Source: Marixanthomonas spongiae (GTDB taxonomy: Bacteria; Bacteroidota; Bacteroidia; Flavobacteriales; Flavobacteriaceae). From it: a stretch of 64,000 bases of DNA. The DNA lies in assembly GCF_003095375.1 (NCBI RefSeq), contig NZ_QEHR01000001.1:372001-436000 (forward strand), given 5' to 3'. Made by a program: the position numbers and the translations under genes. A model generated the notes under the pieces. It ran no database searches, was not told where the DNA came from, and saw only the letters and a program-made list of their open reading frames with translations. Shown here piece by piece: positions 4,157 to 46,439 of this stretch. Numbering within the stretch: the first letter of the stretch is position 1; every line of letters starts with the position of its first letter.

Positions 4157-5983
4157 TTAATGGTTCAGTTCGTCCTCGTTTTCCTTTAGGGGAATGGTTT
4201 GAGGTACAAAATCCTGACCGGGTATCACATAATCTGTTTCATCTTTGTTCAACTTACTATAATCGTAAGGCCAACGGTACACGTGCGGTATTGGGCCGTC
4301 CCAGTTACCGTGAATGTGTTTCATTTCGGCTGTCCATTCCAGGGTTGTGGATTTCCAAGGGTTTTTTGGTCCGATCTTTCCGTAGAAAATAGAATGGAAG
4401 AAGTTGTATAAAAACACCACTTGTGCTGCCGCCGTGATGATCGCAAATACGGTAATGACTACGTTAATATCGGCAAGGTCGTCAAAATATGGGAAGTTGG
4501 TATTGGTATAGTACCTTCGGGGCAAGCCTGCCATACCCACAAAGTGCATGGGGAAGAAAATTCCATAAGCCCCTATTGCCGTTATCCAAAAATGGACGTA
4601 CCCTAAATTTTTGTTCATCAAGCGTCCTTCGAACATTTTTGGGAACCAATGATACACCCCGGCCAATAAGCCATATACTGCCGATATTCCCATTACCAAG
4701 TGGAAGTGGGCAATTACGAAATACGTATCGTGCACGTTGATATCCAGTGCACTGTCACCAAGAATTATCCCCGTTAACCCTCCTGTAATAAAGGTGGATA
4801 CAAAGGCGATACAAAACAACATAGCAGGGTTCATTTGCAAATTCCCTTTCCATATCGTGGTAATCCAGTTAAAGGCTTTTACAGCTGAAGGGATTGCGAT
4901 CAACAAGGTTGTAAAGGTAAAGACAGAACCTAAGAACGGGTTCATTCCCGAAACGAACATATGGTGCCCCCAAACAATCGTTGAAAGAAAGGCAATAGCC
5001 AAAATAGAGGCCACCATCGCACGATATCCAAAAATAGGCTTACGGGCGTTTGTTGACATGATTTCGGACACGATGCCCATGGCCGGCAATATCACGATAT
5101 ATACCTCTGGGTGGCCCAAAAACCAAAAAAGGTGTTCAAATAAAACAGGGGAACCGCCTTGGTTGTGCAATACCTCACCTGCTATGTAAATATCTGAAAG
5201 GAAAAAGGAAGTTCCGAAACTTCTGTCCATGATCAGCATCAAAGCAGCAGACAATAATACTGGGAATGATACAACCCCAATGATAGCGGTTACAAAAAAC
5301 GCCCAAATAGTCAATGGGAGACGTGTCATGGACATGCCCTTGGTACGTAAATTTAATGTTGTAACAATATAATTAAGCGACCCCATTAATGAAGAGGCAA
5401 TAAAGACAGCAATTGAAATCAACCATAAGGTCATCCCTACTCCTGAACCGGGTATAGATTGCGGCAACGCACTCAAAGGAGGGTAAATGGTCCATCCTGC
5501 AGATGCGGGGCCAGCTTCAACAAAAAGGGAACAGACCATAATCACACTAGAAATAAAGAAAAGCCAGTACGATAGCATGTTTAAAAAGCCAGAAGCCATA
5601 TCCCTCGCGCCAATTTGCAACGGGATTAAAAGGTTACTAAAGGTACCGCTCAACCCTGCCGTCAACACAAAGAATACCATTATAGTACCGTGGATGGTTA
5701 CCAATGCCAAATAAACACTGGGATCCATCACGCCACCTTCGGCCCATTTCCCTAAAAATATCTCATAAATAGTGAACGGTTCTTCCGGCCATGCTATTTG
5801 CATCCTGAAAAGAACAGACATTAAAATACCTATGATTCCCATAAAAATACCCGTTATAAGGTATTGTTTAGAGATCATTTTATGGTCTTGACTAAATATG
5901 TATTTAGTTATAAACGTTTCTTTATGATGATGCCCGTGATCGTCGTGGTGATCTACTGCTACATCTTGTGCGTGTGCTGACAT
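4157..5983 (-). CDS. ctaD: cytochrome c oxidase subunit I
   Basis: This is the catalytic heme-copper subunit of an aa3-type terminal oxidase in the inner membrane; it reduces oxygen and pumps protons. The 608-residue protein has all expected ligands: H98 (low-spin heme, TIHGTIM), H291 and Y295 in GHPEVY (CuB and the cross-linked tyrosine), the CuB pair H340-H341, and H426/H428 (high- and low-spin heme, AHFHLVMG). About twelve membrane segments can be traced. The N-terminus is unusually His/Asp-rich (residues 11-20). It is the last gene of the act-cta operon, 19 bases after ctaC, and three terminator-like hairpins follow it. Its position after the ACIII genes suggests an ACIII-aa3 supercomplex, as known in Flavobacterium johnsoniae. 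Confidence 0.97.
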   Translation of the reverse strand: MSAHAQDVAVDHHDDHGHHHKETFITKYIFSQDHKMISKQYLITGIFMGIIGILMSVLFRMQIAWPEEPFTIYEIFLGKWAEGGVMDPSVYLALVTIHGTIMVFFVLTAGLSGTFSNLLIPLQIGARDMASGFLNMLSYWLFFISSVIMVCSLFVEAGPASAGWTIYPPLSALPQSIPGSGVGMTLWLISIAVFIASSLMGSLNYIVTTLNLRTKGMSMTRLPLTIWAFFVTAIIGVVSFPVLLSAALMLIMDRSFGTSFFLSDIYIAGEVLHNQGGSPVLFEHLFWFLGHPEVYIVILPAMGIVSEIMSTNARKPIFGYRAMVASILAIAFLSTIVWGHHMFVSGMNPFLGSVFTFTTLLIAIPSAVKAFNWITTIWKGNLQMNPAMLFCIAFVSTFITGGLTGIILGDSALDINVHDTYFVIAHFHLVMGISAVYGLLAGVYHWFPKMFEGRLMNKNLGYVHFWITAIGAYGIFFPMHFVGMAGLPRRYYTNTNFPYFDDLADINVVITVFAIITAAAQVVFLYNFFHSIFYGKIGPKNPWKSTTLEWTAEMKHIHGNWDGPIPHVYRWPYDYSKLNKDETDYVIPGQDFVPQTIPLKENEDELNH

Positions 5984-6002
5984 ATCTTTCTAAGCTATTA
6001 TT

Positions 6003-7067
6003 TTATTGATCTTTTAAAACTTCGGCCATATCTGGTTGTTCTGCCAACCAGGCTTCATAGTCTTCTTGGGATTCTACAATAATCTTCATCTGCATATTGT
6101 AGTGGTTAATCCCACAAATTTTATTACAAAGCAATAAGTAATCAAATTCGTACGGATCTAAAGGGGATTCTCCCTTTGCGATTAATTCTTCGCTGTTTTC
6201 TTTCCGCAACTCGTTGATGTTACGTACTTTTTCGATAACATATTCTTCTTGCCTCATTTCTTCGGTTGTCACGGTAGGTGTAAAGGCAAATTGGGTTACC
6301 ATTCCCGGGACTACGTTCATCTGGGCCCTAAAGTGTGGCATATATGCTGAGTGCAACACATCTTGTGATCGCATTTTAAACAATACCTTTCTACCCACAG
6401 GAAGATGAAGCTCGTTTGTTATTTTATCATCTTGGGCATTAGGGTCTGAGGCATCGACACCTAATTGGTTCACACCTTCAATTAGACGTACATTGGCTTC
6501 TCCCAAGGTATTATCTTCTCCGGCATAGCGGGCACGCCAATCAAATTGATAGGCGTAAAGTTCGATAACCAAAGGATCGTCTTCTTCGCTAACGTTCATG
6601 ATATCGGTCCAGGTAAAAAGGCCGTAAATAATCAAGCCTGCCAAAACGATTACCGGGATGATGGTCCAAATGAATTCCAATTTGTCGTTATCTGCGTAAA
6701 AGATGGCCCGTTTCCCTTTTTCGCCTCTATATTTAAATGCGAAAGTTAGCAACAGCCAATGTGTTAAAATGCCCACAACGAAGAGCAGGATCATCGATAC
6801 AAGCATGAGGTTATCAATCTGCGATCCATGTTCAGAGCCGGCTTTTGGCAAGAGTACGTCGCCCCATTTCCAAAAACTAATAATAACCAAGAGGTATAGA
6901 AATACCAAAAACATGATCATTAAGTATCCGTTGACCTTATTGTCCTTGTCCGATGCGATGTCTCCTGTGTCTGTCTGTTTGGTTTTAGACAATTCAAATA
7001 TCTTGGACATTTGCCAAACAGCAACTCCGAAGAGAATAATTACTAATACAACTAAAAATGCGGTCAT
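6003..7067 (-). CDS. ctaC: cytochrome c oxidase subunit II
   Basis: Subunit II carries the CuA centre, which receives electrons from the cytochrome domains of ACIII or a soluble cytochrome and passes them to subunit I. The 354-residue protein starts with one hydrophobic segment (residues 2-18), then has two more (about 47-66 and 86-108) and a further one near 133-152. The cupredoxin domain holds CuA ligands H239, C314, C318, H322 and M325 (CNKICGINHYNM). About 40 charged residues (267-308) are inserted between the first histidine and the cysteine pair, making a loop longer than in proteobacterial homologues. No fused cytochrome c domain is present, so electrons must arrive from ActA/ActE or another carrier. 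Confidence 0.95.
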   Translation of the reverse strand: MTAFLVVLVIILFGVAVWQMSKIFELSKTKQTDTGDIASDKDNKVNGYLMIMFLVFLYLLVIISFWKWGDVLLPKAGSEHGSQIDNLMLVSMILLFVVGILTHWLLLTFAFKYRGEKGKRAIFYADNDKLEFIWTIIPVIVLAGLIIYGLFTWTDIMNVSEEDDPLVIELYAYQFDWRARYAGEDNTLGEANVRLIEGVNQLGVDASDPNAQDDKITNELHLPVGRKVLFKMRSQDVLHSAYMPHFRAQMNVVPGMVTQFAFTPTVTTEEMRQEEYVIEKVRNINELRKENSEELIAKGESPLDPYEFDYLLLCNKICGINHYNMQMKIIVESQEDYEAWLAEQPDMAEVLKDQ

Positions 7068-7088
7068 TTTATATTATCTTCTTATTTA

Positions 7089-8474
7089 TTAATAATGGTA
7101 ATTTTCGCTTTCCTTGATAAATGGATCTCCTTTTGGTTGTAACGGTGCTTTGGACAAGCCGGTACCGACTACAAAAATAAACAATCCAAAGAAAAAGAAT
7201 ATACTTGCAATTTCTGTAATCCCGAAACTCCAGTGTGCTCCTACGGTAGATGGCATCACCAAAAGGAAAATATCTATGTAATGTCCTACCAGTACCACAA
7301 TACCGGCCATTACCACAAACCAAGGAATACGTTTGTAATCACTGTTCATCAATATCAATATAGGGAATACAAAGTTAAGCACCAACATACCCCAGAACAA
7401 TAGATTGTACTCTTGAATCCTTATAATGAAATAAGTTACTTCTTCAGGAATGTTTGCATACCAAATAAGCATAAACTGTCCGAACCATAAATAGGTCCAG
7501 AAAATACTGAATGCAAAAATGTATTTTCCTAAATCGTGAAGGTGGCTGTCGTTAACAAAAGGCAGGTACCCTCTCCCTTTCAGGAAGATCACAACCAGTG
7601 CAATTGCAGTGATAGCCGACACAAAAATACTTGCAAACACATACCAAGGGAACAGCGTACTGTACCAGTGCGGTGTCATGGACATGAACCAATCCCACGC
7701 CATCATCATTTCTGTAAGGATGAAGAATATCAAGAAGTACACAGAAATTTTAAAGTTTTTCCTGTACGGGTCGTAATTGTCCACTTCTGCTTGTCGCAGG
7801 GAGTTTCGTCTAGAAAAATAACGGTACAAGTTCCACCCCAGAACGTATATAATTGCCCGTATTAAAAAGAACGGGAAGTTAAGGTAGGTAGATTTTACCT
7901 GCAATATCTTATCGTTAGCCACAAGTTCTTCGTTTTGCCAAGGGAAAAAATGGGTTCCGGCAAACACTACAATAAAAAACACAATAATAGAGCCGGGCAA
8001 GACATAGGCTGTGATCCCTTCCATAACGCGGTACAGAACTGGCGACCACCCAGCTTTTGCGGCATATTGTATGGCGTAAAAAACCAGTGTTCCCAACGCT
8101 AACATAAAGAAGAAAAATGCCGACACAAAGGTTGCAGACCAAGGTTTGCTTTGCATTTGGTGCAATACGTGTTCTAAATGCGCATCGCCATGACCGTCCA
8201 TGTGTACATCTTTCTCATGTTTCAGTGCATTTTCGGCATACCCTTCTTGGCCTCGGGCAACATCCACGAAGTTGGCATCGTGTTCTTGCTGGGCTGCATG
8301 TTCTTTTCCAGATGCTGAGCCGTGTCCATCGCCATGGGCGTTTTCTGCAGCCAATATTTCTTCTACATCATCAATAGTAGATGGAACCGTGAAAAAGCCA
8401 TAGGCTATTCCCACAAGGCCAAGTACCATAAGAATGATAGAAAACAGTTTTACTTTATTAGGTAGCGTGTACAT
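7089..8474 (-). CDS. actF: alternative complex III membrane subunit ActF
   Basis: ActF is one of the two large NrfD-like integral membrane subunits of alternative complex III, which oxidises menaquinol and passes electrons to cytochrome c or directly to the oxidase. The 461-residue protein begins with one membrane helix (about 10-27). It then has a strongly His/Asp/Glu-rich periplasmic-type stretch (about 43-105, many HGDGHG and EHD repeats), and then about nine helices. The His-rich loop is variable in the family. The gene follows actE by 24 bases and precedes ctaC by 21 bases. Assignment rests on order in the operon and on the helix pattern; the family is well established in Flavobacteriia. 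Confidence 0.9.
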   Translation of the reverse strand: MYTLPNKVKLFSIILMVLGLVGIAYGFFTVPSTIDDVEEILAAENAHGDGHGSASGKEHAAQQEHDANFVDVARGQEGYAENALKHEKDVHMDGHGDAHLEHVLHQMQSKPWSATFVSAFFFFMLALGTLVFYAIQYAAKAGWSPVLYRVMEGITAYVLPGSIIVFFIVVFAGTHFFPWQNEELVANDKILQVKSTYLNFPFFLIRAIIYVLGWNLYRYFSRRNSLRQAEVDNYDPYRKNFKISVYFLIFFILTEMMMAWDWFMSMTPHWYSTLFPWYVFASIFVSAITAIALVVIFLKGRGYLPFVNDSHLHDLGKYIFAFSIFWTYLWFGQFMLIWYANIPEEVTYFIIRIQEYNLLFWGMLVLNFVFPILILMNSDYKRIPWFVVMAGIVVLVGHYIDIFLLVMPSTVGAHWSFGITEIASIFFFFGLFIFVVGTGLSKAPLQPKGDPFIKESENYHY

Positions 8475-31629: not shown

Positions 31630-33777
31630 TCAGTACTCCAAAATTTCCAAAACTTTTTGTTTTATCTTTTCAGTAGAAGGAATCATGGTTTCTTCTAACG
31701 TTGAATTTAATGGAATTGCGGGCATATTTTCACTACCAATTATCATAACAGGTGCGTCCAACTGCTGGAAACATGCTTCTTGAATTTTTCCCTGTAAGGC
31801 TCGAGCAAACGTGTTTTCCGAAGGTTCTTCTGTCACGACCAAACATTTTCCGCATTTCTTGACCGATTTAAACACTGTTTCATAATCTAAAGGATGCAAG
31901 GTTCTTAAATCCACAATCTCGATTCTATCTTGCATTTGTAGTTCCATAGCCGCGTTCATGGCCCAGTGTACGCCCATTCCGTAAGTAATGATGGAAAGCG
32001 TTTCTACATCCTCTTGCTTCCAAATTTCTTGAAGTAACCACGCTTTTCCAAACGGAAGCACATAATCTTCGGCAGGTTCTAAAGAAGTAGCGCCCTTGGT
32101 GCCTTTTACCTTGCTCCAGTACAGCCCTTTGTGTTCAAAGATAACCACCGGGTTGGGGTCGTAATATGCCGCTTTCATCAAGCCTTTTAAATCGGCGCCG
32201 TTACTTGGGTAGGCAATTTTGAGTCCACGAATATTTGTCACCACACTTTCTACCGAAGACGAGTGATACGGACCACCGCTACCATACGCTCCAATGGGCA
32301 CACGAAGGATCATCGATACCGGCCATTTTCCGTTTGACAGGTAATTACTTCTGCTTACCTCGGTAAAGAGTTGATTCAGTCCCGGCCAAATATAATCGGC
32401 AAACTGAACCTCAACAATGGGTTTTAAACCAACAGCACTCATCCCAACTGTTGAACCCACAATGAACGCTTCTTGAATTGGTGTATTAAATACACGGTTA
32501 TCGCCAAATTTTTGCGCCAACGTAGCTGCTTCTCTAAAGACACCGCCTAAACGACCTCCTACATCTTGCCCATATAACAAACATTCTTTGTGTTTACCCA
32601 TCAACTCTTCAATGGCAAATAAAGCACAATCTACCATCACTACTTTTTCACCACCTTCAGGGGATCGTTCTCCTTTTTCTTCGGTAATTTCGGTCGGGGC
32701 AAAATCGTGGGTGAATAAATCTTCAGGTTTAGGGTCTTCAGCTTTCAACGCTTTTTCATAATCTTTTTGAACCGATTTCTGAATGTCAGCTTCTATTTTT
32801 GAAAGTTCTTTTTCAGAAAAACCATTGTCTAATAATAGCTTTTTAAGTTTCGGATACGGATCTCGAGATCTAGCTTCTTCCAAATCATCTCTGTAAAACT
32901 CCATCCGAACACCCGATGTATGGTGATTTAATAACGGAACTTTGGCGTGTACCAAAAACGGGCGACGTTCAGTTCTAATTTTTGAAATCACATCTTGAAG
33001 GGTGTTATAACTTTCTTCAAAATCGGTTCCGTCTATTGAAACTGCTTCCAGTCCATTGAACCCTCTTGCATATTCACAAGCATTTTGAGCACGGGTTTCG
33101 GCTTCGTTTGCTGAAATATCCCAACCATTATCTTGTACTAGATATAAAATTGGCAACTGCTTTAAAGCTGCCATTTGAAAGGCTTCGGCGACTTCGCCTT
33201 CAGTCACAGAGGCATCACCTAAGGAACAAACTACGATTGGGGCATTCCCGCGCAGGCGGGAATCTTTTGAATGAACCTCTTGGTCATACCATCCATTAAC
33301 AGCATTTTGTTTACTTTTTTCTCGATCATTACTCTCTTTTCCATTTTCGAAAAAATTACCGCTTTCGCGGTAATGAAACCCCATCGCTACCCCCGTTGCC
33401 GGAATAGCCTGCATACCGGTTGCACTACTTTGATGCGGGATTTTTGGTTTATCATCATCACGTAAACTTGGGTGTGAATAATAGGTGCGACCTCCTGAAA
33501 AAGGATCGTCTTTCTTTGCCAATACTTGTAGCATTAACTCGTACGGCTTCATTCCTATTGACAATAAAATAGAATCATCGCGATAATAAGGGAAGGCGTA
33601 ATCCTGAGGCTTTAACTGCATCCCAATAGCAATCTGAATTACCTCATGCCCTCTCGATGTTGCGTGCACATATTTTGAAACTGTTTTAAAATTCTCTTCG
33701 TACAGCTCGGTCAAAGACTTGGCAGTGACCAAGTTTTTGAAGGCTTTTTTTAATATATCTTTTGAAATCTTCTTCAT
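31630..33777 (-). CDS. 2-oxoacid dehydrogenase E1 component (alpha and beta fused)
   Basis: This thiamine-diphosphate enzyme decarboxylates a 2-oxoacid, most likely branched-chain, and passes the acyl group to E2. The 715-residue protein (start ATG 33777, two bases after the E2 stop) joins an alpha part (1-370) and a beta part (about 385-715). ThDP-binding motif: GDASVTEGEV with LVQDNGWDIS. The beta part has LLYGQDVGGRLGG and FNTPIQEAFIVG. Residues 136-178 are an extra 43-residue stretch between FHY and APIVVCSLG, encoded by a 131-base segment bounded by two palindromes (33244-33374). The C-terminus is duplicated as a relic at 30861. Substrate specificity is inferred from family. Confidence 0.92.
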   Translation of the reverse strand: MKKISKDILKKAFKNLVTAKSLTELYEENFKTVSKYVHATSRGHEVIQIAIGMQLKPQDYAFPYYRDDSILLSIGMKPYELMLQVLAKKDDPFSGGRTYYSHPSLRDDDKPKIPHQSSATGMQAIPATGVAMGFHYRESGNFFENGKESNDREKSKQNAVNGWYDQEVHSKDSRLRGNAPIVVCSLGDASVTEGEVAEAFQMAALKQLPILYLVQDNGWDISANEAETRAQNACEYARGFNGLEAVSIDGTDFEESYNTLQDVISKIRTERRPFLVHAKVPLLNHHTSGVRMEFYRDDLEEARSRDPYPKLKKLLLDNGFSEKELSKIEADIQKSVQKDYEKALKAEDPKPEDLFTHDFAPTEITEEKGERSPEGGEKVVMVDCALFAIEELMGKHKECLLYGQDVGGRLGGVFREAATLAQKFGDNRVFNTPIQEAFIVGSTVGMSAVGLKPIVEVQFADYIWPGLNQLFTEVSRSNYLSNGKWPVSMILRVPIGAYGSGGPYHSSSVESVVTNIRGLKIAYPSNGADLKGLMKAAYYDPNPVVIFEHKGLYWSKVKGTKGATSLEPAEDYVLPFGKAWLLQEIWKQEDVETLSIITYGMGVHWAMNAAMELQMQDRIEIVDLRTLHPLDYETVFKSVKKCGKCLVVTEEPSENTFARALQGKIQEACFQQLDAPVMIIGSENMPAIPLNSTLEETMIPSTEKIKQKVLEILEY
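33244..33374. repeat. palindrome-bounded insertion inside the E1 gene
   Basis: Two 20-base palindromes lie in the coding region: ATTCCCGC-GCAG-GCGGGAAT (33244-33263) and ATTACCGC-TTTC-GCGGTAAT (33355-33374). They enclose 91 bases, and the whole 131-base stretch is translated into residues 136-178 of E1 (peptides DSRLRGN and RESGN come from the palindromes). The first belongs to the family seen at gene junctions between 35.7 and 46.4 kb, including the following CTTTTG. The second is a variant. Confidence 0.85.
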
Positions 33778-35708: not shown

Positions 35709-36050
35709 CTATTCCTGCGTAGGCAGGAATCTTTTTGTTTTATAGACTGAATTTACACTGTTTTTCCAATTCAAGGAAATATCCATCCAATCTGGATTCA
35801 TATCATTTATTAAATTTAATTTCCAATCTCGTTTCCACTTTTTTAGCTGTTTTTCACGAATTGCTGCTTTATTACCGTCTTTAAATTCTTCAAAATAAAT
35901 CAGTTTATCACAGTTGTATTTTGCAGTAAATGACTTTTTATAGACTTTGTCTTTATGCTCTAACACACGTGCCTCTAAATCATCCGTAACACCAATGCAA
36001 ATAACTTCGTTGGGTTTGTTTGACATTATTTAGACGAACCATTTTTTCAT
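35709..36050 (-). pseudogene. GIY-YIG nuclease, disrupted by a nonsense codon
   Basis: Reading from ATG 36050 the frame is MKKWFV, then TAA, then IMSNKPNEVICIGVTDDLE and onward to a TAG at 35709. Intact relatives have a tyrosine where the TAA is (the tyrosine of the GIY motif) and YIG where this copy has CIG. So one catalytic tyrosine codon became a stop and the other became cysteine. The remainder (TAKYNCDKLIYFEEF, REKQLKKWKRDWK) matches the intact copy at 36882. The last codons (RFLPTQE and stop) are encoded by the bounding palindrome. An ATG after the stop could only give an inactive 105-residue protein. Confidence 0.88.
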
Positions 36051-36086
36051 GTGTGCTTGATATGAGATTCCTGCCTACGCAGGAAT
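35711..36086. mobile_element. GIY-YIG cassette 1, bounded by inverted 20-bp palindromes
   Basis: The 376-base unit starts with ATTCCTGCGTAGGCAGGAAT followed by CTTTTTG (35711-35730). It ends with GAG followed by ATTCCTGCCTACGCAGGAAT (36067-36086). The two palindromes are in opposite orientation as judged by the loops GTAG and CTAC, so they form terminal inverted repeats. The unit fills the space between the stop codon of the enoyl-CoA hydratase gene (its TAA shares a base with the palindrome) and the paaY start 5 bases away. It encloses the disrupted GIY-YIG gene. Confidence 0.7.
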
Positions 36087-36838
36087 TATTTAAACCGTTT
36101 CAACTTCTCTTTTGTAAAAGAAGAAAGTACCAAACGTCCGCTTATTTTGGCGCGTTCTTGTAATAGTTCATCCCAATTTTCGGTTCCTCGCCAGAACATT
36201 TGTTTCATTTCTTTTACCGCTTCGGGGTTGTAGCCGCACAATTGTTCGGCCAAGGCTTGTACTTCTTCGTCTAGCTCTTCGGTCGTTTCAAAAACTTTGG
36301 TAAATAAACCTTTGTCTCTCGCCCACTCCGGAGAATAAAAAGAATTGGCATCAATCGCAATTTGCGACATGCCGCTCACTCCGATTTTTCGTTGTACTGC
36401 CGGACCTACAACAAAAGGACCTATTCCCAAGTTTAGTTCACTTAATTTTATAGCTGAAAACTTAGTTGCCATCGTGTAATCCATGGCTGCTGCCAGTCCG
36501 ACACCGCCACCAACAGTTTTTCCTTGCACACGACCGATAATAAACTTAGGGCATTTGCGCATCGCGTTAATTACATTGGCAAAACCACTGAAGAATTTTT
36601 CGCCTTCTTGTTCATTTTCAATTGAAATTAATTCTTTAAAACTTGCTCCGGCACAGAAGGTTCTATCGCCGCCGCTTTTTACAACAAGTACCAAAACCTC
36701 ATCATTTTGACCGGTTTCGGTGATAGTATTTGCGAGTTTTGCTAGAATATCCCCCGGCAAACTGTTGTGCGCCGGATGGAAAAATTCTATGGTTGCTATT
36801 CCTTTTTCTATGGTATGTTTTACGTATGGTTGTGTCAT
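36086..36838 (-). CDS. enoyl-CoA hydratase/isomerase family protein
   Basis: A 250-residue crotonase-fold enzyme, acting on a CoA thioester within the catabolic cluster. The oxyanion-hole segments are seen in CAGASFKEL and GKTVGGGVGLAAAMDY. The glutamate usually acting with water is in KLSELNLGIGP, near residue 140. This is a second crotonase in the cluster besides the PaaG-like one at 44139, and it may serve branched-chain acid or ring-cleavage intermediates. It lies between two GIY-YIG cassettes; its ATG is 6 bases from one palindrome and its stop codon merges with another. Confidence 0.87.
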   Translation of the reverse strand: MTQPYVKHTIEKGIATIEFFHPAHNSLPGDILAKLANTITETGQNDEVLVLVVKSGGDRTFCAGASFKELISIENEQEGEKFFSGFANVINAMRKCPKFIIGRVQGKTVGGGVGLAAAMDYTMATKFSAIKLSELNLGIGPFVVGPAVQRKIGVSGMSQIAIDANSFYSPEWARDKGLFTKVFETTEELDEEVQALAEQLCGYNPEAVKEMKQMFWRGTENWDELLQERAKISGRLVLSSFTKEKLKRFK

Positions 36839-36844
36839 GTTTAC

Positions 36845-37218
36845 TTCCCGCGTAGGCGGGAATCTTTTTAGGGTTATACTTCTATTTTAAATCTTTAAAT
36901 AAATCGTTCCAATTCGGGTTATTTTTTTCTATCAATCTGATTTTCCATTCACGATTCCACTTTTTTAATTGTCTTTCACGAAGCAAAGACTTATTCTTTA
37001 ATTCAAAATCCTCAAAATATATCAACTTATTCAAATTGTACCTTGCGGAAAAAATTGTTGGATGAACTTTTCTTTTATGTTGACTTATTCTTCGTTTTAA
37101 ATCTCCAGTTTGACCAATATATAAAACTCCATTTTTTATATTTGTTATTATATATACACTATAAATTTTCACTTTCTTTCTATCAATAGATTCCCGAGAT
37201 TCCCGCCTGTGCGGGAAT
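36845..37218. mobile_element. GIY-YIG cassette 2, bounded by inverted palindromes
   Basis: A 374-base unit with the same layout and almost the same length as cassette 1. The left palindrome is TTCCCGCGTAGGCGGGAA (36845-36862) followed by TCTTTTTAG. The right end is GAG followed by ATTCCCGCCTGTGCGGGAAT (37199-37218), preceded by a partial duplicate ATTCCCGAG. It carries the intact GIY-YIG gene and lies between paaZ (stop 10 bases away) and the enoyl-CoA hydratase gene (start 6 bases away). Confidence 0.7.
36882..37172 (-). CDS. single-domain GIY-YIG nuclease
   Basis: A 96-residue protein that is just one GIY-YIG domain. It begins MKIYSVYIITNIKNG with the VYI motif, followed by VLYIGQTGDLKRRISQHK, which has the YIG motif and the catalytic arginine. 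The acid residue lies in LLRERQLKKWNREWK and the asparagine in NNPNWNDL. All expected catalytic residues are present, unlike the copy at 35709. GIY-YIG enzymes cut DNA and occur in homing endonucleases, UvrC and some transposons. No DNA-binding or other domain is attached, so target choice must come from the domain itself or from a partner. It lies inside the palindrome-bounded unit 36845-37218. Confidence 0.88.
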   Translation of the reverse strand: MKIYSVYIITNIKNGVLYIGQTGDLKRRISQHKRKVHPTIFSARYNLNKLIYFEDFELKNKSLLRERQLKKWNREWKIRLIEKNNPNWNDLFKDLK

Positions 37219-37228
37219 TTTGAACAGT

Positions 37229-39742
37229 TTAATCTAAAAGATTAAACTGTTCAAAATGATGATTAAGGTGTTTCCGCTCCAATAAATATGATTCAAACTT
37301 ATTAAGTTCGCCGAAAACCAAATTTTTAAGTTTGGCATCTGGGTTTTCTTTAAAAAACTCGATATACTTTTCGCGTTGCTCTTTAAATTTCTTGATGGCC
37401 GTTTCTAAATCGGGGTGTTTTAAATCATCCAATTTATCCTTTTCAAGCATTGGGAATTGCGAGTTTTGCGGAAATTTCTCATAGTTGTATAAACTCGCAT
37501 GTACCTTCTCTAATATCTTTTCTGGAGTGGCAATATCAAAATCCTGAATTTCACCGGAAGCAATCTTATAGGTGTATTCTAAATGCTCTACCATATGCTG
37601 TGGGGTCATAATGCCCCATTTTGGTTTAGCATCTGCAGTTAATTTTGACAGACATTCATCGATTTTTTCATCGGTAATTTCAACAAAGGTTTCTTGCTTT
37701 TTCTGCACCATCGTTAAAATGGTCGCTATCGCAACCAACGGTTCTTGGTCCTCATCCGGTTCGGCATCGAACACTTCTACGAACCACTTTACAATTCCGG
37801 AAGGAAGTTCGGTTCCTTTTTGCTCACGATCCACTTTTTGCTTGCACGTTAAACGCACATAAATTGTATCGTTGTGATACAACGGCCGTAAAAAACGAAT
37901 GTCTTCCAGACCATAATTTGCCGCTACCGGACCTTTGTTTGGATACACAAATAATCCCGCTGCTGCCGAAATAATAAAATACCCATGTGCCGTTCGTTTT
38001 TCAAAAATGCTTCCTTCAAGGGATGTAATATCGGTATGTGCATAGAAATGATCCCAAGTTAAGTTTCCGAAGTTAATAATATCGGTATCGGTTAGGGTTC
38101 GTTTGTGTGTTTCCAATGACATTCCGGGTTTGATGTCTTCCCAATGATAAGCAAAAGGGTGTTTTTCAGATTTTTTATAAACTGATTTTGGTTGATAAAT
38201 ACCTGTAACTTCAGTTAACGATGTTGGTGAACCTTGAATGGCACAACGCTGTAAATAGTGTTTTACACCGCGAACACCCCCCATTTCTTCTCCGCCACCG
38301 GCCCGTCCTGGACCACCGTGAATTAAGTTAGGCAATGGCGAACCGTGACCGGTGCTTTGCTTCGCACTTTCTCGGTTCAAAATTAAAATACGCCCGTGAT
38401 GCGTAGCTGCGGAAACGGTATATTCCTTGGCAATTTTATCGTCATTGGTGACAATGGAACTTACCAAAGAACCTTTCCCCATTTTGGAAAGCTTAATTGC
38501 ATCGTCCAATGTTTTATAAGGCATTATGGTACTTACTGGGCCAAACGCTTCAGTGATATGGGCGGCTTCGTTGGCAAAAGGATTGTCTTCGCGAAGTAAA
38601 ATTGGTTTTACGAACGAACCTTTTTTAGCATCGGCCCCTACTGTTTTGGCTTCATCAAAGTCACCATAGACTATTTGTGCCGTTTTGGTGATTTTTTCAA
38701 TTTGTTCTTTTACTGAATTCCGTTGTGCATCGCTCACTAAAGCGCCCATTCGCACTTCTTTTAAACGAGGATCGCCAATGGTAACTTTATCCAGTTGTTT
38801 TCCAAGCGATATCTGTACATCTTCAATTAAGTTTTCTGGAACAATAACTCGTCTAATCGCCGTACATTTTTGACCGCATTTTACGGTCATTTCATTTCGG
38901 ACTTCCTTGATGAAAAGATCAAATTCTGGTGTTCCAGGAACGGCATCTTCCCCTAAAATTGCAGCGTTTAACGAATCGGCTTCCATCGTAAACGGAACCG
39001 ACTCTTCAATTAACCGTGGATGTTTCTTCAGTATTTTCCCGGTACTTGCCGAACCGGTAAACGTCACCACATCTTGTGATTCTACCGTGTCCAAAATGTT
39101 TTTGGCAGTTCCGCTAATCAATTGCAATGACCCTTCTGGCAATATTCCAGAAGCGATGATTTCTTTTACAACAGCTTCGGTTAAATATGCCGTTTGTGGT
39201 GCCGGTAATACAACCGCAGGCATCCCTGCCATCCAGTTTACCGCACACTTTTCAAGCATTCCCCAAACTGGGAAGTTAAAGGCGTTAATGTGAACCGCCA
39301 CTCCTTCGCGAGGCACCATAATGTGATGTGCCATAAACCGCCCGCCACGTGATAAATCGACCGGATCGCCTTCTACGTGAAACGGCTGATTTGGGAATAA
39401 TTTCCGAAGCGAAGCATTGGCAAACAAGTTTCCGAAGCCTCCTTCAATATCAATCCAACTATCCACTTTGGTTGCGCCAGTTCGGTAACTTACTTCGTAA
39501 AAGTCTCTTTTTTTCTTCTGAAGATAGAATGCTAATTTCTTCAGCATTAATCCGCGTTCTTGGAAGGTCATTTTGCGAAGGGTATCGCCTTTTTGTCTTC
39601 CGTAGTTTAATATTTCAGGAATATCTAACCCTTCCGTAGTGACACTTGTAAAATGCTCGCCAGTAACTGAATCGAGAATTGGGCTTCCTTCGCCTTTTCC
39701 ATCAGTCCAACTTCCTTGTATGTAATGTTGTGTTTTTGTCAT
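37229..39742 (-). CDS. paaZ: PaaZ, oxepin-CoA hydrolase/aldehyde dehydrogenase, with extra C-terminal domain
   Basis: PaaZ opens the oxepin-CoA ring and oxidises the resulting semialdehyde to 3-oxo-5,6-dehydrosuberyl-CoA. The 837-residue protein has an aldehyde dehydrogenase domain (1-520, catalytic C293 in VKCGQKCTAIRR and E254 in FTMEADSLNA) and a MaoC-like hydratase domain (about 530-685, TDTDIINFGNLTWDHFYAH). E. coli PaaZ ends at about 681 residues; here about 150 more follow, with PKWGIMTPQHMVEHLEYTY and LNHHFEQFNLLD. This resembles a DinB-like/DUF1569 helical bundle. The function of this tail is unknown. Downstream of mazF by two bases. Confidence 0.93.
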   Translation of the reverse strand: MTKTQHYIQGSWTDGKGEGSPILDSVTGEHFTSVTTEGLDIPEILNYGRQKGDTLRKMTFQERGLMLKKLAFYLQKKKRDFYEVSYRTGATKVDSWIDIEGGFGNLFANASLRKLFPNQPFHVEGDPVDLSRGGRFMAHHIMVPREGVAVHINAFNFPVWGMLEKCAVNWMAGMPAVVLPAPQTAYLTEAVVKEIIASGILPEGSLQLISGTAKNILDTVESQDVVTFTGSASTGKILKKHPRLIEESVPFTMEADSLNAAILGEDAVPGTPEFDLFIKEVRNEMTVKCGQKCTAIRRVIVPENLIEDVQISLGKQLDKVTIGDPRLKEVRMGALVSDAQRNSVKEQIEKITKTAQIVYGDFDEAKTVGADAKKGSFVKPILLREDNPFANEAAHITEAFGPVSTIMPYKTLDDAIKLSKMGKGSLVSSIVTNDDKIAKEYTVSAATHHGRILILNRESAKQSTGHGSPLPNLIHGGPGRAGGGEEMGGVRGVKHYLQRCAIQGSPTSLTEVTGIYQPKSVYKKSEKHPFAYHWEDIKPGMSLETHKRTLTDTDIINFGNLTWDHFYAHTDITSLEGSIFEKRTAHGYFIISAAAGLFVYPNKGPVAANYGLEDIRFLRPLYHNDTIYVRLTCKQKVDREQKGTELPSGIVKWFVEVFDAEPDEDQEPLVAIATILTMVQKKQETFVEITDEKIDECLSKLTADAKPKWGIMTPQHMVEHLEYTYKIASGEIQDFDIATPEKILEKVHASLYNYEKFPQNSQFPMLEKDKLDDLKHPDLETAIKKFKEQREKYIEFFKENPDAKLKNLVFGELNKFESYLLERKHLNHHFEQFNLLD

Positions 39743-39744
39743 TC

Positions 39745-40077
39745 TTAAAACTTTATAATCTTATATAGGCTTTCAACAATTTGCTCAAATTCTGCTTCCG
39801 TTAATTTTCCATACTTTTTTAGAATCCTTTCTTTTGAAATGGAACGGATATGAATCGTCATAACTTCGGAAGTTTTTGACAATCCATTTTCCTTTGTCGG
39901 TTCTACAATCAAATTACCTTTATACCGCTTTAGCTTACTGGTCAATGGACAAACTATGACAGTGTTAACGAGTTCGTTGACCAAATTTCCCGAAAATATA
40001 ACCGCAGGCCTACGTCCACTTTGTTCGCTACCGAGAGTTGGATCTAAATAAACCTCATAGATATCACCCTGTTTCAT
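39745..40077 (-). CDS. type II toxin, MazF/PemK family
   Basis: A 110-residue protein with the family hallmarks: MKQGDIYEVYLDPTLGSEQS start, GRRPAVIFSG, VIVCPLTSK, and TIHIRSISKERI. MazF toxins are mRNA endonucleases acting at short sequences; the site cannot be read here. The start overlaps the antitoxin stop by 4 bases (coupled). Its position between an SDR gene and paaZ, all on one strand, means the addiction module lies inside the catabolic operon. Confidence 0.93.
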   Translation of the reverse strand: MKQGDIYEVYLDPTLGSEQSGRRPAVIFSGNLVNELVNTVIVCPLTSKLKRYKGNLIVEPTKENGLSKTSEVMTIHIRSISKERILKKYGKLTEAEFEQIVESLYKIIKF

Positions 40078-40976: not shown

Positions 40977-40980
40977 ATCT

Positions 40981-41078
40981 ATGCCCGCGAAGGCGGGTAT
41001 CTTTTTGTTTCTAAATAAATTAAGCTCTAATCAAATGTCTTTTTCTTCCGACTGTGAGATTTCTGCCTACGCAGAAAT
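40981..41078. repeat. GIY-YIG-less palindrome pair between the SDR and thiolase genes
   Basis: A 98-base unit with the cassette ends but no gene: ATGCCCGCGAAGGCGGGTAT (40981-41000, one wobble) followed by CTTTTTG, and GAG followed by ATTTCTGCCTACGCAGAAAT (41059-41078). The SDR ATG is 4 bases to the left. The thiolase stop codon TAG lies inside the right palindrome. It looks like a deletion derivative of the GIY-YIG cassettes. Confidence 0.75.
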
Positions 41079-42278
41079 GTTTTCAATTACCGCTGCATAT
41101 CCTTGTCCAACGCCCACACACATCGTTACCAGTGCATATTTTTTTCCCGTTTCCTGAAGCTCTAAAGCTGCAGAATAGGTTAATCGTGCTCCTGTAACGC
41201 CTAGCGGATGACCAATTGCGATTGATCCTCCATTTGGATTAATACGTGGATCATCATCTTTTAATCCCCATTCTCGGATACATGCTAAAGCTTGCGATGC
41301 AAAAGCTTCATTAAGCTCAATAACATCCATATCTTCCATAGTCAAACCTGCTTTTTTCAACGCTTTATTAGAAGCTTCCACTGGGCCAATCCCCATAATA
41401 CGAGGCTCCACGCCTACAACGGCTGAACTTAAGATTTTAGCCATTGGTTTTAAGTTGTATTTTTTTACGGCATCTTCTGAAGCAATAATAGTCGCAGCAG
41501 CACCATCATTTAACCCAGAACTGTTTCCGGCTGTAACACTTCCCCCTTCTTTTTTGAAGGCTGGACGAAGTTTCGCCAAAATCTCTTTCGTTGTTCCCGG
41601 TTTGATAAACTCGTCATCTTTAAAAATAATTGGGTCTTTTTTCCGCTGTGGAATTTCCACCGGTACGATTTCCTTGGCAAAACGGCCGCTTCTTTGTGCT
41701 TCAGCAGCTTTCATCTGACTGTTATACGCAAAAGCATCTTGGTCTTCACGAGTGATTTTGTGCTTTTCAACTAAATTTTCAGCAGTATTTCCCATTCCGT
41801 CGGTGCCGTACATATCGTGCATTTTCTTGTTGACGAACCGCCATCCAAAACTGCTGTCGTACATTTTGGCATCATTACCAAAAGCGCTGGAAGGTTTTGC
41901 TATTACGTATGGGCCTCTCGTCATATTCTCCACCCCACCTGAAATGAACAAATCACCATCGCCGGCTTTAATTGCTCTGTTGGCGTGAATTATGGCAGAT
42001 AAACCACTACTACACAGTCGGTTTACAGTTTCACCAGGTACCGTAAAAGGCAATCCTGCTAACAGAAGAGCCATTCTCGCTACGTTTCGGTTATCTTCAC
42101 CGGCTTGGTTGGCACAACCCATGATTACATCGTCGAATGCTTCCTTTGGGATGTTTGGGTTTCTTTTAACCACTTCTGCAATGACCAATGCGGCCAAATC
42201 GTCCGTACGGATTGTGCTTAGTGTTCCTTTGTAACTTCCTATTGGCGTTCTAATGCCGTCTATTATATATGCTTCCAT
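41067..42278 (-). CDS. paaJ: acetyl-CoA C-acyltransferase (3-oxoadipyl-CoA thiolase, PaaJ type)
   Basis: This thiolase cleaves 3-oxoadipyl-CoA, and the dehydrosuberyl-CoA intermediate, to succinyl-CoA or the shortened CoA ester plus acetyl-CoA at the end of phenylacetate breakdown. The 403-residue protein has the nucleophile cysteine in NRLCSSGLSAI (about residue 89), GHPLGVTGAR with the catalytic histidine, and the second cysteine in VTMCVGVGQG. The last codons (NISA and stop) are formed by the palindrome at 41059, indicating that the element inserted at the gene end. The paaJ name rests on context. Confidence 0.9.
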   Translation of the reverse strand: MEAYIIDGIRTPIGSYKGTLSTIRTDDLAALVIAEVVKRNPNIPKEAFDDVIMGCANQAGEDNRNVARMALLLAGLPFTVPGETVNRLCSSGLSAIIHANRAIKAGDGDLFISGGVENMTRGPYVIAKPSSAFGNDAKMYDSSFGWRFVNKKMHDMYGTDGMGNTAENLVEKHKITREDQDAFAYNSQMKAAEAQRSGRFAKEIVPVEIPQRKKDPIIFKDDEFIKPGTTKEILAKLRPAFKKEGGSVTAGNSSGLNDGAAATIIASEDAVKKYNLKPMAKILSSAVVGVEPRIMGIGPVEASNKALKKAGLTMEDMDVIELNEAFASQALACIREWGLKDDDPRINPNGGSIAIGHPLGVTGARLTYSAALELQETGKKYALVTMCVGVGQGYAAVIENISA

Positions 42279-45560: not shown

Positions 45561-46340
45561 CTACCAAGTCATGTTTGGATAGGTTCGTTGCATATATTGC
45601 AAATCGGCCAATATATAGCCCATATGCTCGGTGTGCACACCTTTTTTTCCTCCTCGAGTAAAATACTTTCGCTCTGGGATTTCCAATGTTGCTTCTTCTA
45701 AAATTTCTGAAACTTTTTCATAATACGTTTCTTTCATTTCTGAAACAGCGATACCAATACCTTCATCTATCATTGCCTTATCGGCTTCGGTTTCATCGAA
45801 CAATTCGTCAGTATAGCGCCATAAATCATTAATGGCCTCCTGCATTTTTTGGTTGCTTTCATCGGTACCGTCACCAAGACGCTTTACCCAATCTGAAGAA
45901 AAACGCTTGTGATAGCTTACTTCTTTAATTCCTTTTTTTGCAATAGCTACTAACGTTTCATCTTGACTGTTTTGAAGCCGCTCCATCAGCATTAAATGAT
46001 ACACATCGAATAAAAATTGACGCGCCATTACGTGCCCAAAATGTGTGTTGGGTTGCTCCACTAGCAAGACGTTTTTATACTCTCGTTCTATCCGCAAAAA
46101 AGCAATATCGTCTTCGGTTTTATCTTCTCCGGCAAGCTTTGCTGCATATTGATAATAACTACGTGTTTGCCCTAATAAATCTAAAGAGATATTTGTTATA
46201 GCAATATCGGTTTCTAAACTCGGGCCGTGACCACACAATTCCCCTAATCGCTGTGCGAGGATAAGCGAGTTGTCGGCGATGCCGAGAATGTAATTATATA
46301 AATTCCCGTGAAAGCGGGAATCTTTTTCTTGAGATTTCAT
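45561..46340 (-). CDS. paaC: PaaC, structural subunit of phenylacetyl-CoA 1,2-epoxidase
   Basis: PaaC pairs with PaaA in the multicomponent epoxidase core; it has a ferritin-like helix bundle without a working di-iron site. The 259-residue protein carries LYNYILGIADNSLILAQRLGELCGHGP near the start (shortened: NYILGIADNSLIL, GELCGHGP) and WVKRLGDGTDESNQKMQ. The N-terminus (MKSQEKDSRFHGN) does not resemble the family; KDSRFHGN is encoded by the palindrome at 46302-46321. The native start was probably an ATG at the present GGGAATTTA, replaced by insertion, so the used ATG is supplied by the element. The protein is otherwise normal. Confidence 0.92.
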   Translation of the reverse strand: MKSQEKDSRFHGNLYNYILGIADNSLILAQRLGELCGHGPSLETDIAITNISLDLLGQTRSYYQYAAKLAGEDKTEDDIAFLRIEREYKNVLLVEQPNTHFGHVMARQFLFDVYHLMLMERLQNSQDETLVAIAKKGIKEVSYHKRFSSDWVKRLGDGTDESNQKMQEAINDLWRYTDELFDETEADKAMIDEGIGIAVSEMKETYYEKVSEILEEATLEIPERKYFTRGGKKGVHTEHMGYILADLQYMQRTYPNMTW

Positions 46341-46439
46341 GTTTCTTTAATCTTTCATTATCAAATCAATAATATGCTTTTAAATATTTTTACCTTAAAA
46401 ACGTATAGCAAGGTTAGAGATTCCCGCCTATGCGGGAAT
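46302..46439. repeat. GIY-YIG-less palindrome pair between paaB and paaC
   Basis: A 138-base unit with left palindrome ATTCCCGTGAAAGCGGGAAT (46302-46321, one wobble), then CTTTTTC, and right end GAG, then ATTCCCGCCTATGCGGGAAT (46420-46439). One base separates it from the paaB stop, while the left part runs into the paaC coding region and contains the present paaC ATG (46340). No nuclease gene remains. Non-autonomous derivative by structure. Confidence 0.78.

Follow-up and report, generated by a model that had tools for sequence, protein, structure and literature searches.

Palindrome-bounded GIY-YIG nuclease cassettes with a REPIN-like organization in Marixanthomonas spongiae and other bacteria

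Results

Two cassettes flanking an enoyl-CoA hydratase gene

The 64,000-nucleotide stretch of the Marixanthomonas spongiae genome analyzed here (hereafter the window; NCBI RefSeq assembly GCF_003095375.1, contig NZ_QEHR01000001.1, positions 372,001 to 436,000) contains, at 35711-37218, one enoyl-CoA hydratase (ECH) gene with a palindrome-bounded GIY-YIG cassette on either side (Table 1). The two units measure 376 and 374-375 bp, in agreement with the original prediction. The ends of cassette 1 form a perfect (100%) 22-nt inverted pair, 332 nt apart, and those of cassette 2 a 21-nt inverted pair, 90% complementary and 331 nt apart. As had been proposed, the palindromes lie in opposite orientation, with CTTTTT inside the left end and GAG inside the right end. 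The predicted layout of 8-bp arms and a 4-nt loop holds for three of the ends but not for the left end of cassette 2, and the assumption that each unit carries one GIY-YIG gene is borne out by the intact gene of cassette 2 but not by cassette 1, whose gene is dead.

Table 1. Features of the window, in window coordinates
Feature	Position	Strand	Remarks
Palindrome-bearing block inside E1 (2-oxoacid dehydrogenase) CDS	33234..33379	.	In-frame, reads ...SKDSRLRGNA...; present in G000 and G005 only, missing in G001-G004
Cassette 1 GIY-YIG pseudogene	35709..36050	-	Open part matches Pfam PF01541 at E=1.4e-11
Cassette 1 (palindrome / GIY-YIG pseudogene / palindrome)	35711..36086	-	Missing from the orthologous site in 5 genus relatives
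Cassette 1 left-end palindrome, ATTCCTGC-GTAG-GCAGGAAT	35711..35730	+	
Cassette 1 right-end palindrome, ATTCCTGC-CTAC-GCAGGAAT	36067..36086	-	Opposite orientation
Enoyl-CoA hydratase, host gene between the cassettes	36086..36838	-	ECH_1, E=4.7e-31
Cassette 2 (palindrome / intact GIY-YIG gene / palindrome)	36844..37218	-	Missing from the orthologous site in 5 genus relatives
Cassette 2 left-end palindrome, cTTCCCGC-GTAG-GCGGGAAt	36844..36863	+	7-bp arms
Cassette 2 GIY-YIG nuclease gene, intact	36882..37172	-	96 aa, GTG start; PF01541, E=1.3e-15
Cassette 2 right-end palindrome, ATTCCCGC-CTGT-GCGGGAAT	37199..37218	-	
19-bp inverted repeat, cassette 2 end to last codons of aldehyde dehydrogenase/MaoC gene	37217..37257	.	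Kept in same-clade cassettes at the same site in other genera
Palindrome dimer without gene, REPIN-like	40977..41082	.	Ends oriented as in cassettes; in 4/6 compared genomes, missing in 2/6
Palindrome dimer without gene, REPIN-like	46303..46438	.	Ends oriented as in cassettes; missing in 5 relatives

A TAA (36032-36030) interrupts the cassette 1 reading frame precisely where the first catalytic motif should have its tyrosine (FV*IMSN), and the second motif reads CIG instead of YIG, so that the description as a single-domain GIY-YIG nuclease with its catalytic residues is true of cassette 2 and not of cassette 1. The cassette 2 protein was modelled by AlphaFold2 with a pLDDT of 92.5, and the nearest solved folds are those of UPF0213 (1ZG2), Slx1 and the UvrC N-domain. 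Fold and active-site layout are shared with these proteins, whereas sequence similarity to UPF0213/COG2827 is weak (E=0.15), and we know of no repeat pairing for any of the three structures. Searches of NCBIfam and PADLOC returned no specific family and no defence-system assignment. Close same-site nuclease pairs display pN/pS values of 0.06-0.10, and the protein is therefore under purifying selection. Of 80 genes located within co-directional gene pairs, 73 are read in the sense direction and 7 in antisense; counted by distinct site, the proportion is 37 of 44 (p=5e-6).

Distribution of the palindrome in the window and genome

Exact TTCCYGCNNNNGCRGGAA sites number 6 in the window and 13 in the whole genome. 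Allowing for up to 3 mismatches, 17 sites are found in the window against 6.8 expected, a count reached in 0 of 100 shuffles, and at up to 2 mismatches the whole genome yields 74 sites versus 26 for the reversed control pattern. The original prediction had overlooked two palindrome dimers that enclose no gene, as well as a copy located inside a coding sequence (Table 1). The same kind of dimer is encountered on the G214 chromosome, which holds 55 palindromes and where all six close pairs (47-105 bp apart) are oriented like cassette ends. Both in the window and in G214, two inverted REPs hence occur as a dispersed unit, which is the arrangement that characterizes REPINs.

In the clade of cassette 2, inverted repeats of 19-25 bp link the 5' end of the cassette with the final codons of the aldehyde dehydrogenase gene lying upstream, both at 37217-37257 and at loci L094, L098, L099, L100, L103, L106 and L107; they are conserved across genera and absent in cassette-less relatives. 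Interpretation of the 37217-37257 repeat as a fresh insertion scar was ruled out by its conservation in same-clade cassettes of several genera. At 39745-40077 (-), the window also contains a 110-aa ORF, a putative PemK/MazF-type endoribonuclease.

Empty sites and recurrent insertion sites

Empty and filled sites were compared, as suggested with the original prediction: G001 to G005, five relatives from the same genus, are cleanly empty at both cassette sites and have no palindrome there. One of these, G005, carries a cassette at a third site, some 0.6 kb away, between the E2 gene and a hexapeptide-repeat (gamma-carbonic-anhydrase-like) gene, and this cassette is bounded by a 26-bp direct repeat of the target sequence. 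The E2 site is also occupied in a sixth relative (G006) and is empty in G000-G004, G000 being the window's genome. In G006, this site (L069, ~5300-7200) additionally holds a phenylacetate-CoA-ligase-like gene and a nested insertion of the palindrome, which has a short direct repeat.

Long direct repeats were detected at 2 of the 40 cassettes examined, one of 26 bp and one of 36 bp in a tandem duplication, and none of at least 12 bp at the other 38. Therefore, there is no fixed target duplication, and the fixed-length target site duplication of classical insertion sequences and MITEs is not seen in these 40 cassettes. Target site duplication was accordingly rejected as a general hallmark, given that one of the only two instances is a tandem duplication. 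At locus L088 (G162), two cassettes lie in tandem, with a 36-nt duplicate of the beginning of the E2 gene in between.

Several insertion sites recur among the 102 genes for which both neighbours are known. The cassette 2 site, with an aldehyde dehydrogenase/MaoC (paaZ-like) gene on one side and ECH on the other, accounts for 16 of them, and trpB-trpA and dut for 8 each; we assigned the names paaZ-like, trpB, trpA and dut by reading the neighbours' sequences. The cassette 2 site is occupied by at least two distinct nuclease clades, whose palindromes differ. Nuclease distances at trpB-trpA and dut parallel those of the adjacent genes, a pattern expected under vertical descent; many of these copies thus look vertically inherited, and movement is therefore rare. 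Recent homing was disfavoured on the same grounds as a general cause of shared sites. The paaZ-like/ECH intergenic region constitutes a hot spot, with its 16 GIY-YIG genes spread over different genera (loci L087, L091, L094-L107, L126, L128, L149 and L150).

Association of nuclease and palindrome across genomes

Framing of the nuclease gene, defined as an inverted repeat score of at least 13 between the 300-bp flanks, was observed for 48% of 94 host-family GIY-YIG genes, while the other ORFs of these loci (n=472) gave 1.7% (p=6e-32); about half of the 94 genes have no detectable inverted pair. In a second set of 79 named loci, representing at least 12 phyla, the same threshold gives 76% framed loci as compared to 1.3% for the 298 control ORFs (p=1e-47). 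The query for this set derived from lineages whose framing had already been observed; 76% cannot therefore serve as an unbiased estimate for GIY-YIG genes at large, and the in-locus control is the comparison that counts. Within non-coding DNA, hairpin density beside the GIY-YIG gene is 7.6 times that of the remainder of these loci (p=4e-21).

The 20-bp palindrome form is present in 120 of 249 host-family genomes, in up to 55 copies, while its reversed control is found in 0 of 249. Palindrome number tracks presence of the gene, as had been anticipated: 45 of the 129 genomes with a GIY-YIG match have five or more copies, as opposed to 7 of the 120 that lack one (p=7e-9), and the Spearman coefficient over the 249 genomes is 0.53. 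The sample holds mostly one genome per genus, and these statistics carry no phylogenetic correction. The gene predicts palindromes in genomes lacking a Y1 transposase (p=2e-6) and in those encoding one (p=0.008), whereas Y1 presence has no effect on palindrome count, whether the GIY-YIG gene is there (p=1.0) or not (p=0.65). A close member of the subfamily is present in 13 genomes, and all 13 bear the palindrome. Four genomes with a good GIY-YIG match have zero palindromes of the window's class. G101, with 40 exact palindromes and no nuclease match at E<=1e-8, may have lost the gene, may harbour a divergent one or may be an exception to the pairing.

Palindrome sequence was also expected to co-vary with the nuclease subfamily, and it does. 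On a tree of 102 nuclease sequences, which are short and leave many forks unresolved, the palindrome stem class changes 16 times, as opposed to a shuffled mean of 35 and a minimum of 31. The signal persists when a single row is kept per insertion site, which removes copies that merely share a locus by descent: 10-11 changes are then required versus about 17 after shuffling, and none of 20 sets of 100 shuffles reached the observed value. Other nuclease clades have palindromes such as ATTTCCGC or those of the CTGAA class. The palindrome comes in a distinct form on each branch of the nuclease tree, and the two therefore look like partners spreading in concert.

Discussion

The pairing of a GIY-YIG nuclease with a REPIN-like organization, which was the core of the original prediction, is well supported by copy-number tracking, empty sites, co-variation and same-orientation dimers. 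None of the three outcomes named beforehand as refuting it was obtained. We consider it likely that the cassette is a REPIN-like unit, in which inverted REPs surround a GIY-YIG gene whose cognate recognition element is that same palindrome. The accompanying statement that no such pairing had been described is, on the other hand, probably wrong. A study in Nat Commun (2025) reportedly describes GIY-YIG site-specific single-strand nucleases (Ssn), the Neisseria meningitidis member of which is said to recognize a repeat, NTS, present in hundreds of copies, and to affect natural transformation. Compared by description, both cases involve a small GIY-YIG nuclease and a repeated sequence, found here in the genome at large and next to the gene, together with homologues of differing specificities and a wide distribution. 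The Ssn work reportedly deals with cleavage and natural transformation, in contrast with the framing in at least 12 phyla, insertion polymorphism, dimers and tree co-variation reported here. The pairing is hence probably not unprecedented and close to Ssn/NTS; what is new is the insertion polymorphism, the gene-free dimers, the co-variation and the link to CGTC REPs. Our literature search for a link between GIY-YIG and REP, whose coverage did not extend to the Ssn study, gave no match.

The latter link stems from the architecture of the palindromes. CGTC-tagged REPs have an 8-bp stem beginning with AT, a 4-nt loop, a CGTC or TGTC tag and a CCA-like tail (PMC3733652). They were reported in 2013 without a dedicated transposase and with no mention of a GIY-YIG gene, in species that include Gramella forsetii and Caulobacter crescentus, and the Neisseria dRS3 element was equated with CGTC-1 (PMC3733652). 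The palindromes of relatives commonly follow the pattern (C/T)GTC-ATTCCYGC-NNNN-GCRGGAAT-CCA, and the ends of framed relatives in at least 12 phyla are mostly of this architecture, with the CGTC/TGTC tag outside in most cassettes and a CCA-type tail inside in many. The window copies share the inverted dimers, the 4-nt loop and the 8-bp stem starting with AT (one of the four has a 7-bp stem), but they have no such tag beside them and have CTTTTT (left end) or GAG (right end) in place of CCA. Because both tag and tail are absent, we regard them as CGTC-like and do not file them as CGTC-1.

The most obvious parallel is with REP/RAYT (TnpA-REP) systems and their REPINs, in which an enzyme gene is likewise framed by its own palindromes, gene-free inverted dimers occur and the palindrome family is lineage-specific (PMC3116915, PMC8266576). 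The framed gene encodes here a hydrolytic GIY-YIG nuclease with no rejoining chemistry, instead of the HUH (Y1) tyrosine transposase that is the cognate enzyme in those systems. That ordinary REPs have been moved by a Y1/RAYT transposase, with the GIY-YIG gene as a passenger, seems extremely improbable. Inverted REP pairs are a hallmark of RAYT systems (PMC3116915, PMC8266576) and the window's genome does contain one Y1 match, with a stop inside it, but Y1 presence is unrelated to palindrome count, the GIY-YIG gene is predictive in both Y1 classes, the GTAG tag is missing beside the palindromes and no tyrosine transposase gene flanked by CGTC REPs was found in the earlier survey (PMC3733652). 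The lack of association with palindrome count largely refutes the Y1/RAYT transposase as mobilizer. A disfavoured and very unlikely alternative is that of a small UvrC-like repair endonuclease of the COG2827 type and an unrelated hairpin or terminator repeat collecting in the same intergenic niches. C. crescentus has three small COG2827 endonuclease genes that have been discussed as repair enzymes (PMC1839093), and the predominance of sense orientation inside operons (73 to 7) would suit such a role; both the 7.6-fold hairpin enrichment over other non-coding DNA of the same loci and the co-variation of palindrome class with nuclease clade speak against it.

Two further explanations were considered. 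One is a free-standing homing endonuclease, which would repeatedly enter a given intergenic site in cassette-less alleles, the palindromes being simply the insertion ends. Recurrence of sites across genera and the occupation of the paaZ-ECH site by different clades and palindromes are points in its favour. Nuclease distances at trpB-trpA and dut, on the other hand, largely follow the pattern expected of vertical descent, and the presence of gene-free dimers at many other loci is not something that simple homing would lead one to expect, which makes this reading rather unlikely. Somewhat less unlikely, though still improbable in our view, is an Ssn-like nuclease that acts on the repeats to modulate DNA uptake or recombination, with cassettes and repeats spreading by ordinary homologous recombination only, as a system of recombination control and not a mobile element. 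Purifying selection, long residence at some sites and the rarity of target duplications are in line with this notion, as is the work reported on Ssn/NTS in Neisseria natural transformation. Against it stand palindrome-free empty alleles and palindrome-bearing insertions in coding sequence, which imply that non-homologous insertion is needed at least sometimes.

Returning to the nuclease as cognate enzyme of the palindrome, we infer that the 96-aa protein binds and cuts the palindrome and brings about its movement. By analogy with TnpA-REP, which acts on single-stranded hairpins (PMC8266576), the enzyme would most likely recognize the palindrome as a hairpin in single-stranded DNA, along with flanking single-stranded bases, and nick beside it. 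Such DNA might be supplied by the lagging-strand template, by repair tracts or by incoming DNA. Host repair or template switching could then copy REPs, gene-free dimers and, rarely, a whole cassette to other places. GIY-YIG enzymes hydrolyse DNA and do not rejoin ends; it would therefore fall to host repair to complete an insertion, in agreement with target duplications that vary in length or are absent. Recognition and cleavage of the palindrome, a preference for its single-stranded form and a causal role of the nuclease in its spread are thus the presumed components of this scheme.

More generally, and as a tentative suggestion, the GIY-YIG nuclease might be the dedicated mobility enzyme of CGTC-type REPs, making up a second REP-enzyme system that would run parallel to REP/RAYT in at least 12 phyla through hairpin-directed nicking and host repair. 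CGTC REPs, including the abundant dRS3 of Neisseria, had no enzyme assigned to them in 2013 (PMC3733652), and the GIY-YIG gene provides a concrete and testable candidate, because it is framed by the palindromes in many phyla, its lineage predicts their sequence and its presence predicts their copy number. If this were true, the selfish REP-enzyme arrangement would have arisen with two unrelated enzyme chemistries. The GIY-YIG/palindrome pairs also amount to a natural catalogue of small nucleases and their probable targets.

Additional GIY-YIG paralogues exist in the window's genome and genus. One in the window's genome (L002/L064, G000:C2 ~351744) is framed by TGTC-tagged repeats of the CTGAA type and has a poly-C run of about 20 nt close by. 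In the genus genomes, more small paralogues (L005, L006, L032, L039 and L051) are located between long repeats with TGTC-like or GGTG-like ends; these are not simple 8-bp hairpins, and the cognate repeats look different in kind.
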